A stretch of 31,718 nucleotides of DNA. It comes from a virus. The notes beneath the pieces were generated by a model. It was not told where the DNA came from, ran no database searches, and was given only the letters and a program-made list of their open reading frames with translations. The translations under genes and the position numbers were made by a program. Location: the IMG/VR virus record IMGVR_UViG_3300048079_000214, positions 1 to 31,718 of that record, one strand, 5' to 3'. Shown piece by piece: positions 3,454 to 22,202 of this stretch; position 1 is the stretch's first letter; every line of letters begins with the position of its first letter.

Positions 3454-4104
3454 TCACCATACGATCGCCGCAATTTCTTCCGGCGTGGTGGCGAGATCCA
3501 GCTGCGCTTTCAGGCGCTGCGAATAGTTGAAGTTCTCGGTGCCCTGCGCTGCCATGCCGGCGAACAACGTGCGGAAGGCGTCGACATCGGGCAGCAGGTG
3601 CATCGAGTTATCCACCGCGCGCCAAGCGCCGGGAAAGCCGTCAGGGAATGTGCCAAACAACCCGATGTGGTTGGCCACGCCGTCGATATCCGATCGTGAC
3701 ACCGTGTCGCATGAGAACAGCTTGCCGGCGTAAGGGAACGTCGACAGGTTCGCGCTCGCGCGCCAGGCGTTGATCTCGGCGTTCTTTGCAGCGCGCAGCT
3801 CATCGAGCGTGGGCTCGACCAGCGGCGCTGTGCCGTCGATCACCTGCCCGATCGCCACCAGAGGCATTGGCGTCGGCGTGCTCGGATCGCGCACGCGGTG
3901 CATAGTCTCGAACCAGTCAACCGGGCAGTAGCTCATGATGAACGCGCGCAGGTCATCGCCCTCCGGAGCCGGCACCGGCAGTGAGATCGCATACTGCGCA
4001 CGATTGCCGAGTTCGGATTCAGTCAGCACGTCGCTAAAGAACCTGACGATGATCTGTCGTTCGCCCGGTACCGTATCTACGATACGGAATTTGATAGTTG
4101 CCAT
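3454..4104 (-). CDS. Tail-fibre-associated protein with C-terminal DUF4376
   Basis: This 216-residue protein has a beta-rich N-terminus (residues 1-85). Its C-terminal half, from L-R-A-A-K-N-A-E-I-N-A-W-R to the end, matches the DUF4376 pattern common at the ends of phage tail-fibre operons: repeated short helices, D-V-D-A-F-R-T-L-F and T-P-E-E-I-A-A-I. Such proteins are thought to be fibre-tip components or fibre assembly helpers; none is visible here beyond that. It is the last gene before the tail terminator and its start abuts the stop of the Gly-rich fibre gene. Confidence 0.75.
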   Translation of the reverse strand: MATIKFRIVDTVPGERQIIVRFFSDVLTESELGNRAQYAISLPVPAPEGDDLRAFIMSYCPVDWFETMHRVRDPSTPTPMPLVAIGQVIDGTAPLVEPTLDELRAAKNAEINAWRASANLSTFPYAGKLFSCDTVSRSDIDGVANHIGLFGTFPDGFPGAWRAVDNSMHLLPDVDAFRTLFAGMAAQGTENFNYSQRLKAQLDLATTPEEIAAIVW

Positions 4105-5000
4105 CAGCTCATGTTCCCTGAAATGATCCCTTGTTCAGCGACAGTTACCGACGTCGCCCCCTCGATGGCCACGCCTTGTACGCCTGGCGCGCCATCACTG
4201 CCGCGAGCGGTGGTGCCGCGTGAGCCTGCTGCGCCGCCCGCCCCGCCGCTGTAGTTGCTGCGCGTGTAGCCTGTTGGTGAAGTCGACCCCGTGCTCGTGC
4301 TGCCCGCGCTGCCGCTAGTTTGCGTCGCACCGCCCGCGCCGCCGCGACCTGCGCCGACTGACCCTTCGCCAGCGCTACCCGAACCGGCGACGCCGCTGGC
4401 GCCTTCGCCGCGCCCGCCCGTGCCGCCCGCATACCGCACCACGTCGGAATTGGTCGTTGAGGTGAGGCGCACACCGCCGCCAGCACCGCCGCCGCCGCCA
4501 CCGCCAGCGCCACCCGTGCCAACGCCAGCCACACCGCCAGCGCCGCCAGCGCCGCCAGCGATAGTGCCGAGATTGCGTACGATAATCGAACGCGTGGCTT
4601 TCAGGCCTGCGCCGCCGGCTTTACCAGTGCCGCCGTTGGAGGCGAAACCGTTGCCACCACGCCCCCCGGTGCCACCGGAATTACCTGCGCTGCCGCCATT
4701 AGGTACGCCGCCCGATCCGCTGGCGCCGACGCTTCCCCGGTCACCGCCGCCGTTCGTACCTTGTGCACCTTGCGCCCCGGTGATCGTGCCTGTATTGACC
4801 AGCAGCAGCACGCTACCGGCGCCCCAGCCATCGCCCGTCGTGAGCGCCGGTAGCGTGCTGTTCGCCGACGTGATGGCGCCCTCGGCCAGACAGATGGCCA
4901 CGACCGGGCCGGCCGGGTTGCCGGCAGCGGTGCGCATGTTGTAGTTGACCGCATTGCCGGGTTTAAGCACGACGGTGCGCGGTAGTAGAAGCGCCATCAT
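4104..5000 (-). CDS. Glycine-rich tail fibre or receptor-binding protein
   Basis: This 298-residue protein has a short N-terminal beta region (residues 1-75) followed by about 200 residues very rich in Gly, Ala, Ser and Thr. That part holds runs such as G-G-A-G-G-A-G-G and an uninterrupted Gly tract, with non-Gly inserts (I-I-V-R-N-L-G-T-I and V-V-R-Y-A) between. It resembles the Gly_rich_2-type domain of phage fibre proteins. By analogy with the T4-like S16 gp38 adhesin it may fold as packed polyglycine-II helices with variable loops that contact the host receptor (inference). The ATG at 5000 overlaps the upstream stop as ATGA. A second ATG follows immediately, so the start is uncertain by one codon. 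The longer in-frame extension inside the previous gene is unlikely. Confidence 0.75.
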   Translation of the reverse strand: MMALLLPRTVVLKPGNAVNYNMRTAAGNPAGPVVAICLAEGAITSANSTLPALTTGDGWGAGSVLLLVNTGTITGAQGAQGTNGGGDRGSVGASGSGGVPNGGSAGNSGGTGGRGGNGFASNGGTGKAGGAGLKATRSIIVRNLGTIAGGAGGAGGVAGVGTGGAGGGGGGGAGGGVRLTSTTNSDVVRYAGGTGGRGEGASGVAGSGSAGEGSVGAGRGGAGGATQTSGSAGSTSTGSTSPTGYTRSNYSGGAGGAAGSRGTTARGSDGAPGVQGVAIEGATSVTVAEQGIISGNMS

Positions 5001-5698
5001 CCCCGGAACCCCGGCAAGTACGAACCGAACATGCTTACGCCGTCGCACACAAAGGAGAATATTGTGCGGCGGTTCGGGCCGGTGTCAATCTGCGGCGGGA
5101 TGTTCTCGATAAATTTATACACCGGGTCGAACGTGAGCGCCCAGCCACCCGTCGCATTCTGCGTAACATGCAAAATGTATGTCCCTGCGGCCATATTAGT
5201 CGGCGCCTGGAGTGACAAGTCAGCCGCCAAAACCCTATCCGCGATCTGAATAGCCGACAAGTCCCAGGCAAGGATGCCGCTGTTGCTAACCAATCCGCCC
5301 GTGGCCGGCGGGATAACCGATATATTTTTCCAGTTCGTCGGGTCAAGGCGCGGTGGGGTCGTGCTTGAACTGGCCCCGGTGCGTTTGCGGTACAGGAACA
5401 ACGACACCGGGTCGACCACAGCGGCGGGCGTCGTGTACGACTGGCCCGACACCCACAGGGCGGCGCCAGCAGCGACTGCACCCTGCGCCGCCTGCGCTGC
5501 GCTGGTGGCGGCAGCCTGCGCCAAGCTATTAACGTCGTTGGCCAACGCATTAGCTTCGCCGCCGAACGCATCGATCGCCTGCTGCAGCGGTGGGAGCTTG
5601 CGCATCATCTCGTCCGCTTCGTCGTCAAACTCGCCCGGCCGGTCAGGATCCGGGGCATTGCCCAGCTGCGGAAGCTTCGTTGTAATTTTTGCGACCAT
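4997..5698 (-). CDS. Tail fibre protein
   Basis: This 233-residue protein begins with M-V-A-K-I-T-T-K-L-P. Residues about 50-80 form an Ala-rich helical segment (A-Q-A-A-A-T-S-A-A-Q-A-A-Q) typical of trimeric fibre shafts. Then comes W-V-S-G-Q-S-Y...V-S-L-F-L-Y-R and P-P-R-L-D-P-T-N-W, the W-x-x-G...L-D-P-x-x-W motif common in phage side-tail fibres. A beta-rich C-terminal domain follows. The start is the ATG within TGATG at the stop of the upstream gene; an in-frame ATG 120 bases further upstream lies inside that gene and is not used in this reading. Confidence 0.75.
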   Translation of the reverse strand: MVAKITTKLPQLGNAPDPDRPGEFDDEADEMMRKLPPLQQAIDAFGGEANALANDVNSLAQAAATSAAQAAQGAVAAGAALWVSGQSYTTPAAVVDPVSLFLYRKRTGASSSTTPPRLDPTNWKNISVIPPATGGLVSNSGILAWDLSAIQIADRVLAADLSLQAPTNMAAGTYILHVTQNATGGWALTFDPVYKFIENIPPQIDTGPNRRTIFSFVCDGVSMFGSYLPGFRG

Positions 5699-6615
5699 CA
5701 GGTCAACTCCTGAATTTGAAGGTTGAGGAACGATCCGGACGGACGCTTCAAGACGATCTGGAAGTCTTGAACGAACCCGAACAAATTGAGAAAGCCGAAC
5801 ACCGGGCTGCCGAGCCACGCGCGCGGCGCCGACTTCGCCAGCGTCAGCAGGCGCAGCACTTCTTCAATGCTCGCATTGTCGATGAACAGGTCGTATTCGA
5901 CGACTCGCACAGCGCGCCGCGGCGTGAACTTGGTATTGCCCCAGATGTCGGTTTCGACCTTGGAATAATCGACCGTGCGTACACTCGGCTCCCACTGCAC
6001 GCGACCGAGGAAATCGAACCTGCCCAGCTGGCACTCGCCTACTTCTGGCCGATTGCCTGGCCAGGTGACGACGATCTCGATCACCGCGCTCCGGTACATC
6101 GGCAAGTCTGTGAACGAGACGTCGCGCCGGAACGACCTGGTCTTGGTGAACCACTCCGACCACGTGCGGCAGTTGCGCAGCCGCAGGTTCTGGATTTTTT
6201 CGTACTTGACCACTCCGTCGACGGTCACCCGAACGCGCACGCTCGAGGCGCGCACCGCGAACAATGCGACGGAGTTGATGCGCACCCCAGGCGTCAACGT
6301 CCACGAAAGCACCTCGTCTTCCGCGATGCTTGCGGTGTTCATCACCGAGTCGAAGGCTGCGTAAAGATTGGTGGGCCGGACGAAGATCCATTTCGCGGCT
6401 GTCCCCGCCAGGTTGTTTTCTGGATAATCCACCGCGTTCGCCGTGGCGGTGTGCGCCACGACGCATTCGTAGATCCGGTGATCGGGCCGACGAACTCGCT
6501 GCTTCACCGTCTTTGCCCCCGCCGCCCACAGTGGCGCGTCGCCGGCATCACTTTCCGAAAGCGTCGACGCGGCCAAGACATCGGCCGTGATTGGAATCGG
6601 AGCGATCAGTTTCAT
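5698..6615 (-). CDS. Distal tail protein of unknown family
   Basis: This 305-residue, mostly beta protein begins M-K-L-I-A-P-I-P-I-T. It has the aromatic-rich early region (Y-E-C-V-V-A-H) often seen in carbohydrate-binding folds of phage baseplate or fibre proteins. I do not recognise a named family. The gene starts inside the stop of the tape measure (ATGA) and ends in a TGATG overlap with the fibre gene. That places it where distal tail or tip proteins are encoded and suggests a structural role linking tail tip and fibres. Confidence 0.65.
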   Translation of the reverse strand: MKLIAPIPITADVLAASTLSESDAGDAPLWAAGAKTVKQRVRRPDHRIYECVVAHTATANAVDYPENNLAGTAAKWIFVRPTNLYAAFDSVMNTASIAEDEVLSWTLTPGVRINSVALFAVRASSVRVRVTVDGVVKYEKIQNLRLRNCRTWSEWFTKTRSFRRDVSFTDLPMYRSAVIEIVVTWPGNRPEVGECQLGRFDFLGRVQWEPSVRTVDYSKVETDIWGNTKFTPRRAVRVVEYDLFIDNASIEEVLRLLTLAKSAPRAWLGSPVFGFLNLFGFVQDFQIVLKRPSGSFLNLQIQELT

Positions 6616-9600: not shown

Positions 9601-12600
9601 GTCATTGCCAACTCGGCTGCGTGAAACACCTGCGACACAGCCTGAAGCGCCCGATAGCCCTTGCTCTGCTCATCGAAGAATCCAGCAGCAGCGCCGGCCA
9701 TGGCGCCATAGCCCGACAGACGGTTTTTGGTGTCCCGCTCGTTCAGCTCCAGAACCGTCTTCTGGTACTTGATCTCGTCAAAATCCTTCGTGCCGCGCTG
9801 AGCTTCAGCCGTTGCTCGTGCTTTCGCGATCTGCTCTTGGCGACGAGCGAACCCGTCGAGCGATGCCGTCATCTTCGAGATTGCATCACCGGCACCGCCG
9901 AACGCTTCGCGCAGGGCTTCGCCAAACGTTTCCGCTCGACCCGGGTCAAGGAACTGGTTCAGCTCGTCAAGCGCCTTTTTGCTCGATTCTGCAGCATCCG
10001 ACTTGACGGCGCCTTCGCGCTTCGCAGCGGCAAGGTTGCGCAGTTCATCCGCCTGACGCCGATAACGCTCAGCCAGCGCACTGCCCGGCTCGATTGCTTC
10101 CAGCATGGCGGCCGTCTGATCTTTGAGGGCGGCGGTATCATTGAGGCGTTCAAACTGCAGATCAGCAAGCGCAGCTTTGCTCAGCCCGATCTCGCTATTG
10201 GCCATGCGCTGGGCTTCGACCTGAGTCCGGATAGTTCCAAGTTCCGCGCTGGCCGTCTCTATGCCTTTCAGGTGCAGATCGCTGCTCTCCTTCGCGCGTG
10301 CACGCTGGGCCGCGGCCAAATCGTTTTCCAGCTGCATCGCCCGGCTGGTACGCTGGGCGCCCAACATGGCAATCTGACCTTCCAGGTCGAGCTGCTCTCG
10401 CTGGCTGCCGATCTTGGATCGAACCATGCCGAGCTGCGCGCGCATGCTGCTTTCCTGGCGATTGAGTTGCGCGACCTGCTCGGCGGCTGTTTGGCGCAGC
10501 GCCTCATCTTCCGAGATGCTGCCCGCGTTGCGCTGTGCTTCGATTTGCGCCAGCGCGCGCTGGCTGATCAAACCTTCCAATTCGCCGCGCTTGCGGAGCG
10601 CCGTGATGCTGCGATCGATGCCGTCGACGTATACATCGTTGTACTTACGGCGCACGACCGACAAGCGCTCTTGGATTTCCGCGTCGCCCAAACCATTCTC
10701 GCGCCCGGCAGTCTCAGCGGCCGACAGGTCGCGGGCCAGCAGCTGCTGGCGCGTCAGGAGGACATTCTTCTCGTCCAGCCATTTGATACGAAGCTCATCG
10801 GCCCGCACTGTCGCGGCCTCGGCCGCCGCTGCATCCTTCGCAGCCTTGCCCTTATCGCGGATCGCGTCGATTTCGCGCTGGTTCAGCTGCAGCGCGGACT
10901 GGGCACCCGCCAAGTCTCGATCCTTCGAAGGATCGTACTTGTCACCATCGCGACGTTTTCCCGCCTCTTGGAGACGATTGACGCGCGCCTGCGTTGCTTC
11001 ACGCTGAGCCAGCAACGCATTAATCCGCTCTTGCGGCCCAACTTCCCGGCCGCCAGCGAAGTCAATGGCCGCATCGATAGCACCCGAGATGCCCTTCTTG
11101 ATGCGCAGCCAGCCGCGCTCCCAATCGGTCAGGCTGTCGAGGACCTTCTGACGCTGACCCGTAATTCCGTCGGCGTACGCGCGCTGCGAAATGCTAGCTG
11201 CCTCGATTGTCCGGCCCTGCTCTTGTGCTGCCTTGACCTGTTCGTAAGTGGCTGCGGTGATGAAATGGTACTTTTCGTTGATGGACTGCAGCGCGCTGAG
11301 CGGTGATTTGCCCAAGTCTGCGAATTCCTTGGCGGTATCTTCAATACTTTTCTTGAGCACATGCTGAGCGTCAACCGCCACGGTGCCGAAACGCTCAAGG
11401 TCGCCAACAGCGATGGAGCCGGTGCTGGCTAACAGGGTCAACGCGGCGGCGGCATCGCGTTGCGAGCCGCTGACCGCGCCGATATTGTTCGCCATATCCG
11501 CCATCTGCAGCGAAGTCGTGCCGGTGATATTGCCGGTCAAGGCGAGCGCGCGCGAGTAGCGGATGCTTTCCTCGTGGCCAGCCTTCAGCGCCGCTGCGCC
11601 AAGCGCCAGGGTTGCGATCGCGATGGTGTAAGGATTGATCAGGCCGAGGACTGCGCCGCCGAGCGCTTTTGCTGCTCCGCCCACGCTGCCAAACATGTCA
11701 CGTAACTGGCCACCCTGCTGCAAGAGCACGGTGAGCGGCGCCTGGCCGCCTTGCAGGCTGACAATGATGTCAGTCATCTGCGCTGGAACGTTGCGCAGCG
11801 CGGCGTTCATAGCAGCAGCGGACATGCCTCCACCATGCAGCGACTGCTCAGCGGCCTTCAGCTGATCAATAAATGGCTTGGCCTGGGTCGAGACGCCCAG
11901 TTGAGCCGCCTGCAACTCAAGCAGTTCAATTCTGGTCTTCCCAATCGCGGCCGCCTGTTGCTCAAGACCTTTCACGAACGAGTCTTGGCCGGTGCGGGCC
12001 TGTGCGGCCTCTCGCTGTGCCTGCGCGAACATGCGCTCACCGTACGTGGCCTGCTCTTGAGCAAGGCGCAGGTCACGTAGCTTGGCAATCAGCGGATCAG
12101 CAGCGCTCGCAGCGCCGGTTTGCGCGGCGCGGTAGCGGAGCACCTCATCGGTGGAGAGTCCGAACAGCGCGATCTGCTCGCGCAATCCCTGAATGAACGT
12201 TGCTTTAGATGCGTCGGCCTGGGCAGCCTCACGCTGAGCGGTCGCAGCGGCGCGTGCGGCCGTCGTCACCTGCTCTTGTGCCGCACGCATATTTTGCAGT
12301 TGCAGGATCAGCTGGGCCGATTCCTGCGTCGCGCCAGCTTGGGCGGCGCGGTACCGCAAGACCTCGTCAGCCGATTTGCCGAACAACGTCACCTGCTCAC
12401 GCAGTCCAACCAGGAACGAATCCTTGTTTGCCTGAAGCTGCGCGACCTCCCGCTGTGCTGCAGCCGCCGCGCGAGCGGCAACCTCAACTTGCTCTTGAGC
12501 GGCGCGCATGTTTTGCAGTTGAAGGATCAGCTGGGCAGATTCCTGCGCCGCGCCGGCCTGAGCCGCGCGAAAGCGCAGGACCTCATCAGCAGATTTTCCG

Positions 12601-13475
12601 AACAGGGTGACCTGCTCGCGCAGCGCCGCCAAAAACGATTCTTTATTGGCCTGAGTTTGCGCAGCCTCGCGCTGTGCCGCCGCGGTCGCGCGCGCTGCCG
12701 CCTCAACCTGCTCCTGTGCCAAGCGCATACTGTGCAACTGCGCGATCAGCTGGCCAGCCTCCTGCGAGGCGCCAGCCTGAGCGGCGCGGTAGCGGAGAAC
12801 TTCATCTGCCGACTTCCCGAACAGCGCAACCTGCTCGCGCAAGCCCGACAAGAACGATTCCTTGTTTGCCTGGGCTTGCGCCGCCTCACGCTCTGCGGTC
12901 GCTTGGGCGCGCGTGGCCGACGCAACTTGGTCGTGGGCCGCACGCATGTTGTTCAGTTGAAAAATCAGCATCGCCGACTCTTGCGACGCGCCGGCCTGGG
13001 CAGCGCGGTAACGCAGCACCTCATCTGCCGATTTGCCAAACAGAGCGATCTGCTCACGCAACCCGGCCAAGAACGAATCTTTGTTGGTTTGTGCCTGCGC
13101 CAGGTCACGTGCGGCGATGGCGTGAGCACGCGTCGATTCGGTCGCCTTCGCCTGGGCCGCCTCGATGGCGCGCAGCTGATTCAGGTACGGCGTCAATGCC
13201 GCTGGATCGACGTCCTTCTGGCGCGCGCTCGCCTCGTAGTAGGCCGCCGTGGTGCGCCCACCAGCCTCCATGGCCATGGTCGTGCGCTGAATCGAGGCGA
13301 TGATGTTGCGTTGCGCCGACTCAACAGCACGTGCAGCGCCTGCCGCACGTTCACCCGATTGGGTGATCGCTGCGCCAGCGCGCTGCGCTGCATCGACCGC
13401 CGGACGCAGGCCCGCCTCGACGCCGGAGGCATCAGCTACCACCCGAATTGTTGCGTTGTTCACGATATCGGTCAT
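6612..13475 (-). CDS. Tail tape measure protein, TMP_2 type
   Basis: This 2287-residue protein sets tail length and is threaded inside the tail tube. The N-terminus (1-125) is Ala-rich helical. Residues 128 to about 545 are tandem 73-residue helical repeats. Residues about 553-640 match the TMP_2 region (V-P-A-Q-M-T-D-I-I-V-S-L-Q-G-G-Q...L-L-Q-Q-G-G-Q-L-R-D). Long coiled coils follow to about 1180, then hydrophobic Gly/Ala-rich segments that could enter the host membrane on DNA ejection. Near the C-terminus two DUF4214-like units (about 2098-2190) carry G-R-x-x-D-x-x-G-L-S-Y-W, followed by P-A-D-M-P-A-Q-I-H-Q-G-E, a common tape-measure ending. At typical helical rise the length implies a tail of a few hundred nanometres. 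The stop overlaps the next gene by four bases. Confidence 0.95.
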   Translation of the reverse strand: MTDIVNNATIRVVADASGVEAGLRPAVDAAQRAGAAITQSGERAAGAARAVESAQRNIIASIQRTTMAMEAGGRTTAAYYEASARQKDVDPAALTPYLNQLRAIEAAQAKATESTRAHAIAARDLAQAQTNKDSFLAGLREQIALFGKSADEVLRYRAAQAGASQESAMLIFQLNNMRAAHDQVASATRAQATAEREAAQAQANKESFLSGLREQVALFGKSADEVLRYRAAQAGASQEAGQLIAQLHSMRLAQEQVEAAARATAAAQREAAQTQANKESFLAALREQVTLFGKSADEVLRFRAAQAGAAQESAQLILQLQNMRAAQEQVEVAARAAAAAQREVAQLQANKDSFLVGLREQVTLFGKSADEVLRYRAAQAGATQESAQLILQLQNMRAAQEQVTTAARAAATAQREAAQADASKATFIQGLREQIALFGLSTDEVLRYRAAQTGAASAADPLIAKLRDLRLAQEQATYGERMFAQAQREAAQARTGQDSFVKGLEQQAAAIGKTRIELLELQAAQLGVSTQAKPFIDQLKAAEQSLHGGGMSAAAMNAALRNVPAQMTDIIVSLQGGQAPLTVLLQQGGQLRDMFGSVGGAAKALGGAVLGLINPYTIAIATLALGAAALKAGHEESIRYSRALALTGNITGTTSLQMADMANNIGAVSGSQRDAAAALTLLASTGSIAVGDLERFGTVAVDAQHVLKKSIEDTAKEFADLGKSPLSALQSINEKYHFITAATYEQVKAAQEQGRTIEAASISQRAYADGITGQRQKVLDSLTDWERGWLRIKKGISGAIDAAIDFAGGREVGPQERINALLAQREATQARVNRLQEAGKRRDGDKYDPSKDRDLAGAQSALQLNQREIDAIRDKGKAAKDAAAAEAATVRADELRIKWLDEKNVLLTRQQLLARDLSAAETAGRENGLGDAEIQERLSVVRRKYNDVYVDGIDRSITALRKRGELEGLISQRALAQIEAQRNAGSISEDEALRQTAAEQVAQLNRQESSMRAQLGMVRSKIGSQREQLDLEGQIAMLGAQRTSRAMQLENDLAAAQRARAKESSDLHLKGIETASAELGTIRTQVEAQRMANSEIGLSKAALADLQFERLNDTAALKDQTAAMLEAIEPGSALAERYRRQADELRNLAAAKREGAVKSDAAESSKKALDELNQFLDPGRAETFGEALREAFGGAGDAISKMTASLDGFARRQEQIAKARATAEAQRGTKDFDEIKYQKTVLELNERDTKNRLSGYGAMAGAAAGFFDEQSKGYRALQAVSQVFHAAELAMTLAELVPKGISAVLSQGTGDPYSAFGRMAAMAAVVAGLGVAIGGVSGGGSVPISESRQKKQGTGSVLGSDAKSESIARALDGIEGATVQGLAISNGMLASLRNIEVGIGQFSSLLVRTTGVTGEFGAGLGGNKFDSKGINAIGAIGGGLAGGLAGGAVAGAMTMGVTGATTLTAVGAVAGPIGMAVGAVLGAVLGKSFGRAMGTVFGGKKSVEDTGFMLTPASYASIRAGGTDAAQYADIKTSGGWFGKDKTKPEIEGLGAEGNRQIASILTSLYDTVLQAGTMLGIGAEGFEAQLNRFVVDIGKVSLKGLSDDEIEKELSAVFSKVGDDLAAFGVDGLASFQKVGEGYLETLTRVATNYQAVTVVTDSMGMTFNAVGLASVGARERLIGLVGGLDEFTSSADQFLADFYSDKERADSLRARITPTLDQFGIKTGAEDSLKQFRSVVTGLDLTTEAGARAYAALMQIAPAFKQIADVDKAALEKATDLSNGKRELEIQIMDLLGDKVGALAATRALELVEMDASLRPLQERAYALEDEAAALQTANSLLSIQAQIYELSGDKAGAAAVLAMQHVNALAELDPTLRGATQNLWDLQAAAKATEQVKTAAAALMSGVDGAFSALQKVVERQKKATQEEIDVRTKAVEKTRSLSEALRSTLDGLTVAGAEKEDRLAAQSQIQAALAIAKASGILPKADDLKAALSALGKDSSGQFATQADYLRDFYATKNGITDLATITDKTLSAEERSLKALEGQVKQHDQMLEREQEQIDVLKGISTIGLSIEQAIQALHGAMGAAGANPYNSATSQISDAYKSSLGRAPDAAGLSYWQDRAAGGISTEAIIGSIKGSPEAQIQALYKDVFGRPADSAGLSYWIDRLKGGISLGSIRDTFEESAEKKLRGFAVGTNYVPADMPAQIHQGERIIPAADNRELMRRLASPSENGEVLAAAVERLTREVEGMRTEMFEVMYQTAKNTGRSANSLEHIDRVGVEIKEEGTV
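11841..13094 (-). repeat. Tandem 219-bp repeats inside the tape measure gene
   Basis: Five well-conserved 73-codon units cover 12000-13094 (protein residues 128-492), followed by a diverged partial sixth to about 11841. The conserved core is L-R-E-Q-(V/I)-x-L-F-G-K-S-A-D-E-V-L-R-Y-R, then A-A-Q-x-G-A and an A-Q-R-E-A-A-Q linker. All units keep frame, so gaining or losing one changes tape length by 73 residues. Confidence 0.9.
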
Positions 13476-16014: not shown

Positions 16015-16322
16015 TACTTTGCACTTTCGCAGACGAGAAACACGAAACCTCGATCGCTCGAGTCGGGCAGCACTGCCTTGATCTCGTATGTGACGCCTAG
16101 GTAACGGGCGCGCATTGCTGCATCAACATCGCGGCGTGCGCGGATCCTGATGGAGCACTTCACAATCGAAACGTCGGCATTGGCGCGCATCACCTCGGCG
16201 CCGCTTTGAAACTTGACGTTGCCCCATACTTCTTGGAGCAGCAGCCAGTCGCCCGCGGGCTGACCGCCTCTGCCGCGCCCGGTCGGTGGCTTCAGCAGTG
16301 CGATTCGGTCGTTCATGTTCAT
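16014..16322 (-). CDS. Head closure protein (head-tail adaptor)
   Basis: This 102-residue protein begins M-N-M-N-D-R-I. It contains W-G-N-V-K-F-Q-S-G-A-E, then alternating strands with I-R-I-R-A-R-R-D-V-D and Y-E-I-K-A-V-L-P-D-S-S-D-R-G-F-V-F-L-V-C. This is the small beta-barrel pattern of the SPP1 gp16/HK97 gp7-type head closure proteins, which plug the connector after packaging. The ATG at 16322 overlaps the upstream stop as ATGA. A start seven codons earlier is possible but would overlap the upstream gene further. Confidence 0.8.
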   Translation of the reverse strand: MNMNDRIALLKPPTGRGRGGQPAGDWLLLQEVWGNVKFQSGAEVMRANADVSIVKCSIRIRARRDVDAAMRARYLGVTYEIKAVLPDSSDRGFVFLVCESAK

Positions 16323-16879
16323 GCGATCACCACCTCTGGCCACAACAGCCGCTTGACGTGCTCATTCTTCGGCTGACCACCGGTCTGAAAGTGCTCGCTC
16401 AGGCGCGCCAGGATGAAGCCCGAGATGGCGTCCGGGACGGTCGTATGGTCGGGCCCGTAGCCGCACCGGATCTGCACCTCGACCGAATTGACCGAACGTC
16501 CTGTTGCTGGCCAAGCGCGGCCCGGCGCGGCAACGATGAAGCCCGGCTCGCTTTCGCCGTCTACCTGATAGTCCTCAGGGTGGAGCGTCTGCAAGACCAA
16601 GTCAGCGTCGTAGAACTTCAAGTGCACCACTTCAAGCAGCGGCGGCCGGCGAAGCGCGATTGCACCCTTGAAGCCATCCAGCGTCAGGCGCCAGGTCTGT
16701 TCCATCACAGCGCGGTTCGTTTCGCCTTCGGCTTCGGTGGTGTAGGTCCGAATAGCTCGCTGGATTTCGCCATCGAGGGGCGACGTGCCATCTTCACCAA
16801 CGTCCACGCGCGCGGCGGTGCGCGCCTCGGCCATCGAAACCGCCAGGCCGACAGGGGGAGTGATTAGCTTCCAGCTCAT
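16319..16879 (-). CDS. Head-tail connector protein, gp6/phiE125 gp8-like
   Basis: This 186-residue protein starts M-S-W-K-L-I-T-P-P. The N-terminal helix A-E-A-R-T-A-A-R-V-D is followed by a helical pair containing Q-R-A-I-R-T-Y-T, then the beta segment T-W-R-L-T-L-D-G-F and P-P-L-L-E-V-V-H-L-K-F-Y-D. It ends with Q-I-R-C-G-Y-G and V-P-D-A-I-S-G-F-I-L-A-R-L-S-E-H-F. This is the layout of gp6-like adaptors such as phiE125 gp8, which form a ring under the portal. The start chosen is the ATG overlapping the stop of a 50-residue gene; the longer in-frame extension upstream is Arg/Ala-rich shadow sequence. Confidence 0.85.
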   Translation of the reverse strand: MSWKLITPPVGLAVSMAEARTAARVDVGEDGTSPLDGEIQRAIRTYTTEAEGETNRAVMEQTWRLTLDGFKGAIALRRPPLLEVVHLKFYDADLVLQTLHPEDYQVDGESEPGFIVAAPGRAWPATGRSVNSVEVQIRCGYGPDHTTVPDAISGFILARLSEHFQTGGQPKNEHVKRLLWPEVVIA

Positions 16880-17028
16880 CGGGTCGTCCCCTGCACTGCT
16901 GGCGGGCGGCCGGCGCCGTGCGGCGCGCCAGGCGCTGCCGGCGCGCGCGCGTATTCGACGGCGGCCGCTTCCTGCTGCTTGAGCAGCTCGGTGTTCGGCA
17001 CGCTCGGCAGTTGCGATGCATCGATCAT
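16876..17028 (-). CDS. 50-residue Ala/Pro-rich protein
   Basis: This small gene encodes M-I-D-A-S-Q-L-P-S-V-P-N-T-E-L-L followed by a Gln/Ala-rich helix and a Pro/Gly/Ala-rich tail. I recognise no family. It fits exactly between its neighbours: its ATG overlaps the stop of the SGNH gene as TGATG and its TGA overlaps the connector start as ATGA. That coupling is the main reason to believe it is translated. It could be a short virion or assembly peptide. Confidence 0.6.
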   Translation of the reverse strand: MIDASQLPSVPNTELLKQQEAAAVEYARAPAAPGAPHGAGRPPAVQGTTR

Positions 17029-20000
17029 CAGTTGTCCACCCTGTTAAATTGAATGGTCCGATAGAAGCGCTCGCTGTTCGCACAGTCGATGCGCAGGTCG
17101 CAGTAATTGACGCCGGCCGGCAAGGTGTCCATGCCGCCCAGCTTCACCAGGATCAAGGACCCTTGGATCACTGCCGGCACAAGCACCTCCACGCCCACCG
17201 GCAGGGCTAATACTGCGCTCGCCGTCGTGTTGCTGTCGACAAGATCGTTTCCGATGTCGCCGACGTAGTAGCTTTGGTCATCAGCATCCTTGCTGAGCGA
17301 GTACAACCCTGCCTGCTGCTTGAACCAGATCGTGCGGTCGAATCTCTCTCCGTTCGCGCACGTGACGCGGAACGTGCAGAAGTTGGCCGCATTGGTGGTG
17401 GCGTTGAAACCGCCTAGCTTCACCGGGATCAGCTTGCCCTGAATGACTGGCTGCTGAAGGACGGTCACGCCCGCGACGATTGGCTCGACAGACATTGCTG
17501 TCGTGCCGCGCTCGGCCAGGTCGATCGTTATGTCCGCAACCCAATAGCGCTCGTCAAGCGGATGCTTGGTCGCCCACCACTTCCCTGCCTGCAGGTACGG
17601 TGCGTTTGGTGTGACCGAGCTGGGCTGAGTCCCGAACCGGACGACCCGCGTGCCACCGGGGAATGCAATCCTGCGGGACTCGGCTACCGTCGAGGCGAGA
17701 ACACCACCCTGTGCAGGAGGCGTGACGACAGGCGGTGTGACTGCTGTGGTGAAAGTTGCCGACAGCGGCGTGGCGCGGTTACCTGCGGCATCCAGGGCGC
17801 GCATCCGGACCTGGTGCTCTGTACCTTCAGGACGGCCGGTGATCACAACCGATCGTGCACCATTGGCGATCAAGGTGTAGCTCGTGCCGCCGTTGATGCT
17901 GTACTCATAGCCGACGATACCAACACCGTCGGTCGCAGCCGAGCACGAGATCGTTGCGCCGGACGTAGTGACAGACGCCACAGTAATTGAGCCGGTCATG
18001 ACCGGCGCGGTGGTATCCGGTGCTGGCGCAGACCCAAGGTCGCCTGCTACGGCGACGCGATCCATCTCCGGGAACATTGGCAGCGCCGTTGTGCCGTTAT
18101 CGTAAATAGTGCGCGTGTTATCCGGGTTGCGACCTGCCATGTAGGTGGCGCGGGCGACGTTGCCACTGCAGACCAGGTCAATTGCGGTTGATCTGAATTT
18201 CTCGACGGCGAACGTCAACGCGCTGCCGTCGGCTGCGTAGGCGGCAAATCCGGTCGGATCGACGAACGGCGTCAGGTCGGAGCCGTTACCGTGGACGAAG
18301 CCGACACGGATGCGGTTACCCTGATATGTGAGCGACGTGATGCGCGGCCCGCGTGGCGTACGCCCCGCTACGAACTCATTCCACACATACGGCATCAGGT
18401 CCGTTTGCTTGTCGTAGTCCGCATCGGTTAGATGCACGCCATCGACAATTTGGAATTGCAGACTCGGAGACACGACGAAATTTGGGTCCGTCAGCATCAT
18501 GTCCAGCTCGGCCATGCGAATGTAATCGCAATTCTTGTCGAACGCGTCGGGGTTTGTCGCCATAGCCCCAGTAGTGCGCAGGTTCAAGCCCGACCACAGG
18601 ATGCGCAGGTTAGGCACGCCCGATAGATCGCGCAGGTTCTGCACGAACGTTTCAATCTGCGTTTTCCACAGCGCTTTTGATTCGACAGTGATGCCGCCAG
18701 CGTCGTTCGAGCCGATCGCAACAGCCGCCCCCGCAATTTTGTTTCCAATCGCGTTCAGCCCGTCGGTAAGGCGCGTCCAATGAAGATAAGTTTTATTTAA
18801 CCATCCTTGCGAGCCGGTCAGCGACGTACCTGATGCGCCGTACGTGACCATGCCCACCACGACGCCCGACGCTGCGGTAATCCGCGCTGCCATTTTGGAT
18901 GCGAGCGTCTGTTCTGGTCGGATGCCCCAGCCATCAGTATTGAAGCTGCTATAGATATCATTGTCAGCGTTGCCGGTGCTCTTGCGCGCCCACGTCTGCG
19001 CCGTTGATGAGCCGACGAGTAGGATCAGGTCGCCCACGCCGAAGCGGTCAGTGTGCACTGCCGACGTGGCAATCACGGCGCCGCCCGCCGTCTTGGTACG
19101 CACGGCGATACGGTATTTCTTGGCGCCCTGCGGAATACCTGGTGCAGCAGTAGCCGATCCGCCGGCAGCAATCGTAGCACCCATGCTGGACCATGCTTTA
19201 CGCACGGTCACGCCGTCCGGGTCATAGAGCTGGTACTCAATGCTTGCTGGTTGGTCGCCGGTGTAGGTCAGCGCAAACGGGACCGCAGCAACGCCGTTGA
19301 TACGCTGGAAAATGCGTTCAGCAACAGGTGGCGCGACATAGATCGCATTGGCCGATGCTGCGACAGAAACTGGGTCGCTCGTTGCATTCGCCATACCTTG
19401 CCCGCTGGTCACGACTTGACGAACGGAGAGTGTTCCGGTGCCGACGTCAGCCGCTACGGGAACGTACTCGGGCGTGGAGGTCGTGGTAATCAGCGCCCCG
19501 TTGCGCAGCCATTCCCAGGTGCTGACCGGGTTCGGGTAGCCGCCCACGGTGCCGGATAGTGCCGTCACCAGCGTGCCAACCTGCGGCGATCCCTGAATAC
19601 TAGGTTTGGTGACAGTAGGCGGCGAATTAACCGACACGTAGCCGAACGGAATCGGCGTGCCCGTTTCCAAAATACCGGTTTTGCTTGTAACGAGGCTGTT
19701 CGGCCCGAAGTCGGCGGTGTCGTTGCCGTTGTTCATGCGGACATACCATTTCGGCGTTTTGCCGATTTCGTAGATGTCCATGCCGTAAGCCAACTTGGCG
19801 ATTTCCAAGTCGGTCAGTACGCCATGCATAAAGAATGCGCGAGCGCTCGAGTTATCCCAGCGACGATCGCCAGGCGGGCGCGCACCGATACGCATATCCC
19901 CCCCTCCGGGGAGCTCTACGGTCAGCGCATATGTGTTCGGGCTGGTGAGGACTGCCGATCCGTCGTTTGGGTTCAGCGACAGGATCGGGCACTGCTTGGT

Positions 20001-20327
20001 GCGCAAAACACCATTGCGACGCTCTGCGATCAGCAGGTACGCATTGCCCGGAACCATTGCGCTTTCGTTCGCCTGTGCCGCCCGTCCTGTCGTTCCGCCG
20101 TTAATAAAGCAGTGCAAGATGCGGCCGGTAGGACGCGCAACCATCGAAAAGCAACCTGTTGTCTGTCCGTTCGAAAGCGGCTGTGAATTGTCGGACGAAG
20201 TTGTGTTGCCATCCCAGACAATAGCAATGCCGAGCGTCCAATCGGCATTTGGCAGAACCGTATGCTCCGACCCGGGAAGAATGATCTGTGTCGGGTCTGC
20301 AGACGTGCTGGAAAGTTTAATCGACAT
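17028..20327 (-). CDS. Multidomain SGNH-esterase protein in the head module
   Basis: This 1099-residue protein is unlike any ordinary neighbour of a capsid gene. Residues 1-230 look like a concanavalin-type (LamG) jelly roll, with F-F-M-H-G-V-L-T-D-L-E-I-A near the end. Residues 235-325 are an Ig-like domain and 330-430 a further beta domain. Residues 432-655 form an SGNH hydrolase: block I L-V-G-S-S441-T, Gly near 497-500, block III G-S-N541-D, block V D629-G-V-H632. About 770-862 is a fibronectin-III-like domain. Two copies of an 80-residue beta domain follow at about 925-1003 and 1015-1097. SGNH enzymes remove acyl groups, commonly O-acetyl from polysaccharides. The gene lies in the decoration-protein slot, with GGAG six bases ahead of its ATG. 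I infer a head fibre or virion esterase acting on host surface glycans. A displaced tail-spike role cannot be excluded. Confidence 0.8.
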   Translation of the reverse strand: MSIKLSSTSADPTQIILPGSEHTVLPNADWTLGIAIVWDGNTTSSDNSQPLSNGQTTGCFSMVARPTGRILHCFINGGTTGRAAQANESAMVPGNAYLLIAERRNGVLRTKQCPILSLNPNDGSAVLTSPNTYALTVELPGGGDMRIGARPPGDRRWDNSSARAFFMHGVLTDLEIAKLAYGMDIYEIGKTPKWYVRMNNGNDTADFGPNSLVTSKTGILETGTPIPFGYVSVNSPPTVTKPSIQGSPQVGTLVTALSGTVGGYPNPVSTWEWLRNGALITTTSTPEYVPVAADVGTGTLSVRQVVTSGQGMANATSDPVSVAASANAIYVAPPVAERIFQRINGVAAVPFALTYTGDQPASIEYQLYDPDGVTVRKAWSSMGATIAAGGSATAAPGIPQGAKKYRIAVRTKTAGGAVIATSAVHTDRFGVGDLILLVGSSTAQTWARKSTGNADNDIYSSFNTDGWGIRPEQTLASKMAARITAASGVVVGMVTYGASGTSLTGSQGWLNKTYLHWTRLTDGLNAIGNKIAGAAVAIGSNDAGGITVESKALWKTQIETFVQNLRDLSGVPNLRILWSGLNLRTTGAMATNPDAFDKNCDYIRMAELDMMLTDPNFVVSPSLQFQIVDGVHLTDADYDKQTDLMPYVWNEFVAGRTPRGPRITSLTYQGNRIRVGFVHGNGSDLTPFVDPTGFAAYAADGSALTFAVEKFRSTAIDLVCSGNVARATYMAGRNPDNTRTIYDNGTTALPMFPEMDRVAVAGDLGSAPAPDTTAPVMTGSITVASVTTSGATISCSAATDGVGIVGYEYSINGGTSYTLIANGARSVVITGRPEGTEHQVRMRALDAAGNRATPLSATFTTAVTPPVVTPPAQGGVLASTVAESRRIAFPGGTRVVRFGTQPSSVTPNAPYLQAGKWWATKHPLDERYWVADITIDLAERGTTAMSVEPIVAGVTVLQQPVIQGKLIPVKLGGFNATTNAANFCTFRVTCANGERFDRTIWFKQQAGLYSLSKDADDQSYYVGDIGNDLVDSNTTASAVLALPVGVEVLVPAVIQGSLILVKLGGMDTLPAGVNYCDLRIDCANSERFYRTIQFNRVDN

Positions 20328-20329
20328 TC

Positions 20330-20587
20330 TTACTCCAGCTTGATGGTTTTCATTCGCCCGCGCCGCTCGTACATCACCGTTGTGACGCCTAGATCGCGGA
20401 GCATGTTCATTGCCGCTGCATGCGCGGCTCGATCAATCTCGCCGACCGCGCCATGCAGGTAGGCAAACGAGTCGGACAGGTGCGTGACCTGGAGGATTGC
20501 CCTGTACGGCCGGCGCGCCTCGTAGCCACCGGGCTCGTCGTACAGTCGGATGGTCGAGACCTCGCGGGCCATGTGCAGGTGGGTCAT
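20330..20587 (-). CDS. Small head-module protein of unknown function
   Basis: This 85-residue soluble protein is predicted as mixed alpha/beta: an N-terminal strand (T-I-R-L-Y-D-E), a central Y-R-A-I-L-Q-V, a helix A-A-H-A-A-A-M-N-M-L-R, and a final V-M-Y-E-R-R-G-R-M-K. I do not recognise the family. The ribosome binding site for the large SGNH gene lies in its last codons, so the two are probably co-translated. A GAGAAAG lies about ten bases before its ATG. Confidence 0.6.
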   Translation of the reverse strand: MTHLHMAREVSTIRLYDEPGGYEARRPYRAILQVTHLSDSFAYLHGAVGEIDRAAHAAAMNMLRDLGVTTVMYERRGRMKTIKLE

Positions 20588-20665: not shown

Positions 20666-20815
20666 TTATTTCGCTGGTTTAGCAGCTTTGGCGTCTGCCT
20701 CGTATGGCTTTGCCACCTTGCCGTCGGTCAGGATCTTGGCCTGGTCGGCCTCGAAGCCGGCGACGTCGCCTGGACTGTAGATCTTCCAGGGCTTGATGAA
20801 TTCGACAGTTTCCAC
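20666..20815 (-). CDS. 49-residue protein with GTG start downstream of capsid
   Basis: The gene starts with GTG at 20815, preceded by AAGGAAC at good spacing. It encodes V-E-T-V-E-F-I-K-P-W-K-I-Y-S-P-G-D-V-A-G-F, then A-D-Q-A-K-I-L and a Lys/Ala-rich tail. The F-I-K-P-W...Y-x-x-G-(D/E)-x-A-x-F pattern is that of short proteins commonly found just after the major capsid gene in siphophages, function unknown. A GTG start and small size make it easy to overlook. Confidence 0.7.
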   Translation of the reverse strand: METVEFIKPWKIYSPGDVAGFEADQAKILTDGKVAKPYEADAKAAKPAK

Positions 20816-20876: not shown

Positions 20877-22202
20877 TTAGGCGCCCCAGGTAACCGCGGT
20901 CAGAATCGCGATCGATTCGACGTGGCGCGGGCCGAAGTCGTGCTTCGCGATGACGCGCACCAGCGTTTGATCACGCTGGAAGGCGCTGACGAGATTGCCG
21001 CCTTCGTCCTTGTACGTCGCTTCCTTCGAGTAATCGATCAGCAGCGTTTCGTCTTCGCCGATGAAGCAGTCATTGAAGTCCACGAAGTAGATTTCCGACT
21101 GATTCGAGCCGGTACCCAGATTGTTTGGAATCTGGGTGGTTTTGCCGACTGGATAGCCCTTCAGATTCCCATCCCTCATCTCCGGATAGACCTTGTTGCC
21201 GTTGCCGTCGCGCAGGCCTTCCAAGAAGCGGAACGAACGTGGCGACATGATCCAGCCGGGCGCGCCCATGTTGGCGTTCACGTTTTCCAGGGCCAGGATC
21301 AGCTTGTTCAGATCGTTTTCGATCTTTTGCAGCGTGTCACCCGCAGATGCTGCGAACTTGAAGCCAGCCAGCGCCCAGGCCAGCAGGCCTTTCGGGGTTT
21401 CCAGGGTGCCGTCGTCGCGGATGAATGCCTTGTCTTCACGCGAGCTCATTGCCCCGGTCAGGTCGTCGACCACGAGCTTGTCGACGTTCGGGCTGGTACC
21501 GGCATAGGCCAGCAGGTCGTTCGAAATCGGGACCAGGCCGGTCAGCTTCTTCGCCGACAGCTTCAGGTTGTCGAAGGTCTGGCCGGTCACGCCGATATCC
21601 GAATCGCTGCCGGTGTAGCCAACGACTGCACCACCCTTCAGGCGCGGCAGGGTGATGTTGCCGTTCGTGAGCGGCAGCGTGCGCGCGCCGAGGCGGCGGA
21701 CAACCGACTGAGGACGCCACAGCTCGATCACTTCACGGGCCATGTTTTGCGGGACCAGCACGCCGCCAGCGCCAGGCGTCAGGGTGTTCAGTGCCATCGC
21801 GACGTCTTCACCGAAGTGATTGTCCATCGCAAACTTGGCGGCCACCTGCTGGTTGCCTTGAGCGACAACCAGTGCGCGCACCATGCGCGACATGCCGGTA
21901 CCGGGCACGCTTGGCATGCGTGGCGTCGCCGGCATGCTTGCAGCGGCCGCAGGCGGTGCTGCGGGTTGGTGGATCGCCGACAGAGCGCGGTCGACAGGCA
22001 CGGCGGCCGCGGCGGCCATGCTCTCAGATGCTTCCATGCGGGTGATCTGCGCGGTCAGTTCGCCGAATTTGGTTTGCAGACCGGTGAACTCGACCAGCTG
22101 CTCGGCGGTCAGTTGACCGCCGCCGGCTTCGATCAGGGCCAGGGCTTGCACGCTGGCGTTGACCTTGGCGCGTTCGCTGCGGAGTTCGTTAATGGTTGGC
22201 AT
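20877..22202 (-). CDS. Major capsid protein, HK97 fold
   Basis: This 441-residue protein opens with a helical delta-type scaffolding region (residues 1-65) and an Ala/Pro-rich linker to about 105. The HK97-fold shell domain runs from about 110 to 441. Typical landmarks are G-A-G-G-V-L-V-P, a P-loop-side stretch F-D-N-L-K-L-S-A-K-K-L-T-G-L-V-P-I-S-N-D-L-L (E-loop and spine helix), and W-I-M-S-P-R-S-F-R-F-L near the A-domain. The delta region would be removed by the S49 protease encoded just upstream. AGGAGAGG before the ATG is a strong ribosome binding site, as expected for the most abundant virion protein. The terminator at 22222-22243 separates it from the protease gene. Confidence 0.95.
   Translation of the reverse strand: MPTINELRSERAKVNASVQALALIEAGGGQLTAEQLVEFTGLQTKFGELTAQITRMEASESMAAAAAVPVDRALSAIHQPAAPPAAAASMPATPRMPSVPGTGMSRMVRALVVAQGNQQVAAKFAMDNHFGEDVAMALNTLTPGAGGVLVPQNMAREVIELWRPQSVVRRLGARTLPLTNGNITLPRLKGGAVVGYTGSDSDIGVTGQTFDNLKLSAKKLTGLVPISNDLLAYAGTSPNVDKLVVDDLTGAMSSREDKAFIRDDGTLETPKGLLAWALAGFKFAASAGDTLQKIENDLNKLILALENVNANMGAPGWIMSPRSFRFLEGLRDGNGNKVYPEMRDGNLKGYPVGKTTQIPNNLGTGSNQSEIYFVDFNDCFIGEDETLLIDYSKEATYKDEGGNLVSAFQRDQTLVRVIAKHDFGPRHVESIAILTAVTWGA

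Follow-up and report, generated by a model that had tools for sequence, protein, structure and literature searches.

A predicted SGNH carbohydrate esterase with a C-terminal Gp77-like domain pair as possible payload of an exchangeable neck appendage in a siphophage

The literature already describes carbohydrate modules on neck appendages, esterases borne on collars, and a Hoc-like protein with an SGNH domain. The Ralstonia podophage GP4 reportedly possesses a 15-fold adaptor and fibres at the tail vertex. The neck passage structures (NPS) of the lactococcal 936/P335 siphophages form collars on which CBM, beta-helix, and esterase-type modules can be swapped (PMC6669499), and the NPS is a known hot spot of domain shuffling (PMC10684548). 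In the Pseudomonas podophage DEV, gp53 forms a 15-fold collar with esterase-like domains round the head-tail adaptor, and the 15:12 mismatch was stated to be “like in the podophage GP4” (PMC10925440). The virus record analyzed here, with a total length of 31.7 kb and termed the “window,” probably originates from a siphophage of an Oxalobacteraceae host and encodes a modular protein of 1099 aa. With a probability of roughly 60%, this protein forms the payload of an exchangeable appendage at the neck (portal vertex) that removes acetyl groups from host polysaccharide, with a C-terminal domain pair as the anchor.

The appendage proposed here resembles the NPS, for which a site at the connector of tail and capsid in siphophages has been proposed and which joins swapped carbohydrate modules to a conserved attachment domain. 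In the NPS, however, attachment is mediated by a BppU-like domain at the N terminus and a trimeric coiled coil, whereas the conserved domain of the window cassette is of the Gp77-like type, lies at the C terminus, and is in most cases duplicated, and the window protein contains a complete catalytic SGNH set. A BppU-like N-terminal collar domain with a coiled coil gave no match in the window protein, the N terminus of which is LamG-like, and no sequence homology was seen between the anchors of the NPS and the window type. DEV gp53 resembles the window protein as a fibre of about 1090 aa with a carbohydrate-esterase-like domain and a beta-barrel collar domain of about 91 aa at the head-tail adaptor but differs as a myovirus-like fibre of a podophage with an N-terminal anchor and a coiled coil, and it did not match the window protein in the searches made. 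A trimeric coiled coil like that of DEV gp53 or the NPS was not evident in the window protein, which counts against a position at the neck. GP4 is related to this locus by its fiber-tail adaptor gp77 (PF23148), which is matched by the family of the C-terminal domain, and by its fiber I gp80, the family of which (Gp80, PF23140) occurs in alternative cassettes at the same genomic slot. In contrast to GP4, the window phage is a siphophage, and its Gp77-like domain is duplicated and fused to an enzyme payload.

The ORF of 1099 residues that the earlier note had claimed at positions 17028 to 20327 is real and located on the minus strand: translation of both strands yielded one unbroken 1099-aa ORF (P0001) on the minus strand and many stops on the plus strand. 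It sits in a head-tail operon, with its start 2 nt past the stop of the preceding gene. Upstream are the genes for the portal, an S49-type protease, and the HK97-type major capsid protein (20877 to 22202, minus strand; Pfam Phage_capsid, E = 7e-48), and downstream follow those for the head-tail adaptor or “connector” (16319 to 17083, minus strand; phrog_442, E = 3e-15; likely ATG start at 16879), the tail tube, and a tape-measure-type protein. A large protein is thus encoded between capsid and connector as had been reported, but it is not alone there, because it is preceded by two small ORFs on the same strand, one of about 49 aa with a GTG start directly after the capsid gene (20666 to 20815, read from the sequence) and one of 85 aa (20330 to 20587). 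The 85-aa ORF has no assigned family, with no match in Pfam or PHROG and none in a tblastn search of the phage collection, and travels with the cassette.

The SGNH carbohydrate-esterase domain extends from about aa 431 to 655 (18363 to 19037, minus strand), as indicated by Pfam, fold, and profile matches. Pfam SASA (PF03629) matched aa 455 to 635 with E = 1.1e-5 and 25.6 bits, which passes the cutoff of 24.8. The AlphaFold model of the full esterase (mean pLDDT of 77, pTM of 0.47) showed a multidomain protein, with low confidence for the loop 441 to 454 directly after S441. Its top match in the PDB was the carbohydrate acetylesterase XAC1771 from Xanthomonas (7kmm; E = 1e-15, TM of 0.63 on the target), the deacetylase FI8 was among the top fold matches, and a profile of seven relatives matched the plant esterase 2apj and the sialate O-acetylesterase 9ega. 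The conserved SGNH blocks are shared with XAC1771 and the SASA/SIAE-type esterases, from which the window enzyme, with its predicted activity, differs by its phage structural context and the extra adhesion and adaptor domains.

Conservation of single residues was counted in 30 nonredundant homologues, using the sequences that covered the respective position (20 to 24). The predicted nucleophile S441 in the GSS of block I (19005 to 19007) was a serine in 24 of 24 homologues, N541 in the GSN(D) of block III (18705 to 18707) an asparagine in 19 of 20, and both the aspartate and the histidine of D629-x-x-H632 in block V (18432 to 18443; all on the minus strand) were found in 21 of 21, while G500 of block II was kept in all 20 sequences covering it. 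These four catalytic residues were also invariant across a seven-sequence alignment, so that their earlier numbering was correct. The assignment as an SGNH esterase likewise held, as a carbohydrate-esterase type with a conserved catalytic set, adhesion-type beta domains, and a location in a structural operon. Sequence and model support a predicted carbohydrate O-acetylesterase that also contains domains resembling LamG, Ig, and FN3. It is probably virion associated, and its substrate may be acetylated host polysaccharide.

The three types of beta domain named in the earlier note could be traced by different routes. A LamG/concanavalin-like domain at the N terminus (aa ~1 to 230; 19638 to 20327, minus strand) was indicated by the secondary structure of the model, a neurexin fold match, and Laminin_G_3 matches in proteins from the same slot of other phages. 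The Ig-like domain (aa ~235 to 332; 19332 to 19625, minus strand) gave a weak Pfam match (Ig_3, E = 0.008) and a match to the titin Ig in a profile search, and it shares 37 to 39% identity with the Ig domains in proteins of Stenotrophomonas and Xanthomonas phages; some of these proteins are annotated as capsid decoration or whisker proteins. The FN3 domain (aa ~772 to 862; 17742 to 18014, minus strand) matched the FN3 of chitinase A1 (E = 2e-4) and, by profile, that of the chitinase 6bt9 (E = 2e-9).

Absent from the earlier note were two beta domains of about 90 aa related to Pfam Gp77 at the C terminus, copy 1 at aa 915 to 1004 (17316 to 17585, minus strand) and copy 2 at aa 1009 to 1098 (17034 to 17303, minus strand), with a pLDDT of 88 for the two-domain model. 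The Gp77 matches of the window's own copies remained below the Pfam cutoff (E = 0.66, copy 1), which counts against a neck position, as does the result of a HMMER search of the PDB with the C-terminal domain, which returned nothing relevant and did not find GP4 gp77. A stand-alone relative with about 60% identity (L065, 13180 to 13488), on the other hand, scored above the cutoff of 27 with 31.7 bits (E = 2.3e-7). Weaker Gp77 matches, mostly near full length, occurred in 22 of 36 other phage records searched, and none of 14 control genomes contained a match over the cutoff, although two of them gave weak ones under the more permissive limit of the initial search. Also unfavorable to the neck, a fold search with the pair returned only generic Ig-like matches, among them a phage N4 capsid entry at rank 17. 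The Gp77-like domain is common to phages of the same hosts and could alternatively act as a receptor-binding tip.

No relatives were obtained when viral and genome contigs were scanned with the window esterase as single query; they were found by scanning with the capsid and subsequently with the C-terminal domain. When the capsid was at least 76% identical and the region complete, an insertion of about 3 to 4 kb was present between capsid and connector; named hosts of such phages were Oxalobacteraceae sp. CFBP 13730 and Massilia brevitalea. At a capsid identity of about 58 to 70% (Burkholderia, Cupriavidus, Alcaligenes, and others), there was mostly a short gap without a cassette. The slot suggested earlier for related phages is therefore occupied, by a mosaic cassette, in the close capsid relatives but mostly not in the more distant ones. 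Payloads were SGNH, GDSL, GH28-like, and lectin or GP4-fibre-like modules, often with the Gp77-like domain in the last position. At E ≤ 0.01, the 66 slot ORFs contained SASA (9), Lipase_GDSL_2 (3), Laminin_G_3 (3), fn3 (6), Gp77 (6), Gp80 (2), GH28 (1), and BNR_4 (1). The two matches to the GP4 fiber-I family Gp80 were strong (E = 9e-27 and 5.5e-28), and the protein of one of these two cassettes also matched chain 8jou_a (E = 2e-7). A Gp80 protein opens the alternative cassettes in L012 (9732 to 10202) and L015 (7735 to 8232).

By profile, the C-terminal domain was present, single or in tandem, in the window and in 16 loci of capsid relatives. It closes the cassette, before the connector where a connector is present, and is a separate gene of 102 to 111 aa in five loci. 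One payload (L013) matched the neck-passage-structure PHROG phrog_7918 with E = 1.5e-21, a further point of likeness to the NPS. Comparison of the slots thus revealed a variable carbohydrate-active payload together with a conserved attachment domain beside connector genes, which is the combination that characterizes an NPS.

A scan with the C-terminal domain gave 182 stretches, from which 79 new loci were analyzed and classed by their head genes. The window-type capsid (class 1) was found in 8 of the 79 loci and an L112-like capsid (class 2), with 20 to 31 bits or no detectable similarity to the window capsid, in 35; class 3 (18 loci) possessed a lambda-type portal and/or a capsid-protease fusion. 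The remaining loci displayed a connector only (17 of 79, many of them short contigs) or were different (1 of 79). In class 3, portal and capsid flank the cassette, and the domain ends some 240 bp short of the capsid gene. Despite these different surroundings, the window and examples from the L112-like and lambda-type classes shared the Gp77-like pair at 81 to 88% identity, and the 85-aa ORF, where present in the domain loci, was mostly 67 to 80% identical. The cassette does not track the capsid, because the same pair occurs beside at least three types of head genes. No significant correlation emerged from Mantel tests that compared the pairwise identity of the C-terminal domain with that of capsid, connector, or tail genes.

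These data bear on the proposal of the earlier note that the gene occupies a capsid decoration slot and makes the capsid itself an enzyme. Many copies would then be bound in a Hoc-like manner to the capsid hexamers and the head would be an esterase, for which speak the capsid gene adjoining in two classes, the Ig domain resembling those of annotated capsid decoration proteins, the N4 entry among the fold matches of the pair, and the GDSL domain described on a Hoc-like protein of phage PG7 (PMC10385173), in which beta domains and an SGNH/GDSL-type enzyme are likewise combined in one structural protein. The window protein differs from the PG7 protein in that no Hoc capsid-binding domain was detected at the sequence level, neither by Pfam nor by PHROG, and in that its module does not follow the capsid. 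No capsid-binding domain was recognized in it, the conserved terminal domain matches a family named after a fiber-tail adaptor, and the likeness to decoration proteins is limited to the promiscuous Ig domain. The main argument is that an anchor fitted to the surface of a capsid would be expected to differ more between such different capsids, whereas the Gp77-like domains are the most conserved ones across capsids of barely or undetectably similar sequence. With the cassette between portal and capsid in one class and mostly missing from phages with 58 to 70% identical capsids, decoration of the whole capsid is disfavored and considered unlikely.

A neck appendage is favored instead because almost every classified locus has the module next to portal or connector genes, and the exchange of its relatives as a cassette between different shells suggests an arm of the neck and not a coat of the head. 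Two further observations count against the neck: a window-type connector was not detected in the lambda-type class either, and in two of the three head classes the gene does fall between capsid and connector. A collar with enzyme arms is proposed after the examples of the DEV collar fibre, GP4, and the NPS; the analogy is one of architecture, and homology is indicated only through the Gp77 and Gp80 profile matches. The C-terminal pair would anchor the protein within or upon a collar that surrounds the head-tail connector and may carry several copies of the arm, and the LamG-, Ig-, SGNH-, and FN3-like domains would point outward. While the beta domains may bind the surface polysaccharide, the SGNH domain would strip acetyl (ester) groups off it, so that the particle could adhere and reach the membrane. 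Presence in the virion, position at the collar, and oligomeric state of the window protein are presumed in this model.

Alternatively, although its gene lies close to those of the head, the protein may be mounted on the distal tail as a tail-tip or side-fibre spike with a generic Ig-like anchor. Spikes typically carry esterase and lectin payloads, one slot protein weakly matched a tail-fibre PHROG, and the distal tail genes of the window phage are short (5698 to 6615, 4997 to 5818, and 4104 to 5048). This is nevertheless quite improbable, because 78 of the 79 classified domain loci adjoin portal, capsid, or connector genes outside the distal tail module, which has its own tail-fibre-like and glycine-rich proteins. 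Equally doubtful is a nonvirion enzyme, produced in lysogeny or in the course of lysis, that modifies the surface of the host for release from debris or superinfection exclusion, which would agree with payloads interchangeable between related phages but not with the start 2 nt after the preceding stop in a head-tail operon, an N terminus without a signal sequence obvious by eye, an adaptor-type domain, and module relatives (GP4, DEV, NPS) that are virion proteins.

To the extent searched, the C-terminally anchored version of a neck appendage with a complete catalytic set in siphophages, exchanged between head types, is new. Tentatively, the 85-aa ORF, the exchangeable carbohydrate-active payload, and the Gp77-like pair could form a self-contained enzymatic-collar cassette that moves as a unit and docks by a generic collar at the necks of siphophages with different capsids, portals, and connectors. 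If the neck reading is true, sugar-active neck appendages, previously described for lactococcal siphophages and a small number of podophages, would be common in siphophages of Oxalobacteraceae, and their exchange between different heads would provide a natural set of interchangeable enzyme arms. It would also be a warning against annotating large genes between capsid and connector as capsid decoration from their position alone.

Some further observations concern the surroundings of the module. The 85-aa ORF (20330 to 20587), kept beside the cassette across head types, may encode an assembly factor or docking partner. An 88.6-kb viral contig (L166) contains a Gp77-like pair without detectable window-type head genes, and this pair adjoins an SGNH protein 33% identical to the window esterase. 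The glycine-rich stretch in the window's distal tail module belongs to a 314-aa protein (4104 to 5048) with no match in Pfam or PHROG, possibly a tail-tip adhesin. The tape-measure gene contains a tandem repeat at 12223 to 13087, in which a 219-bp (73-aa) unit is present about four times. In EBPR siphovirus 1 (L082), a gene annotated “glycoyl hydrolase” (10882 to 12972) is located between the terminase and head protein genes, and its FN3 domain is 48% identical to that of the window protein, perhaps indicating a similar module.
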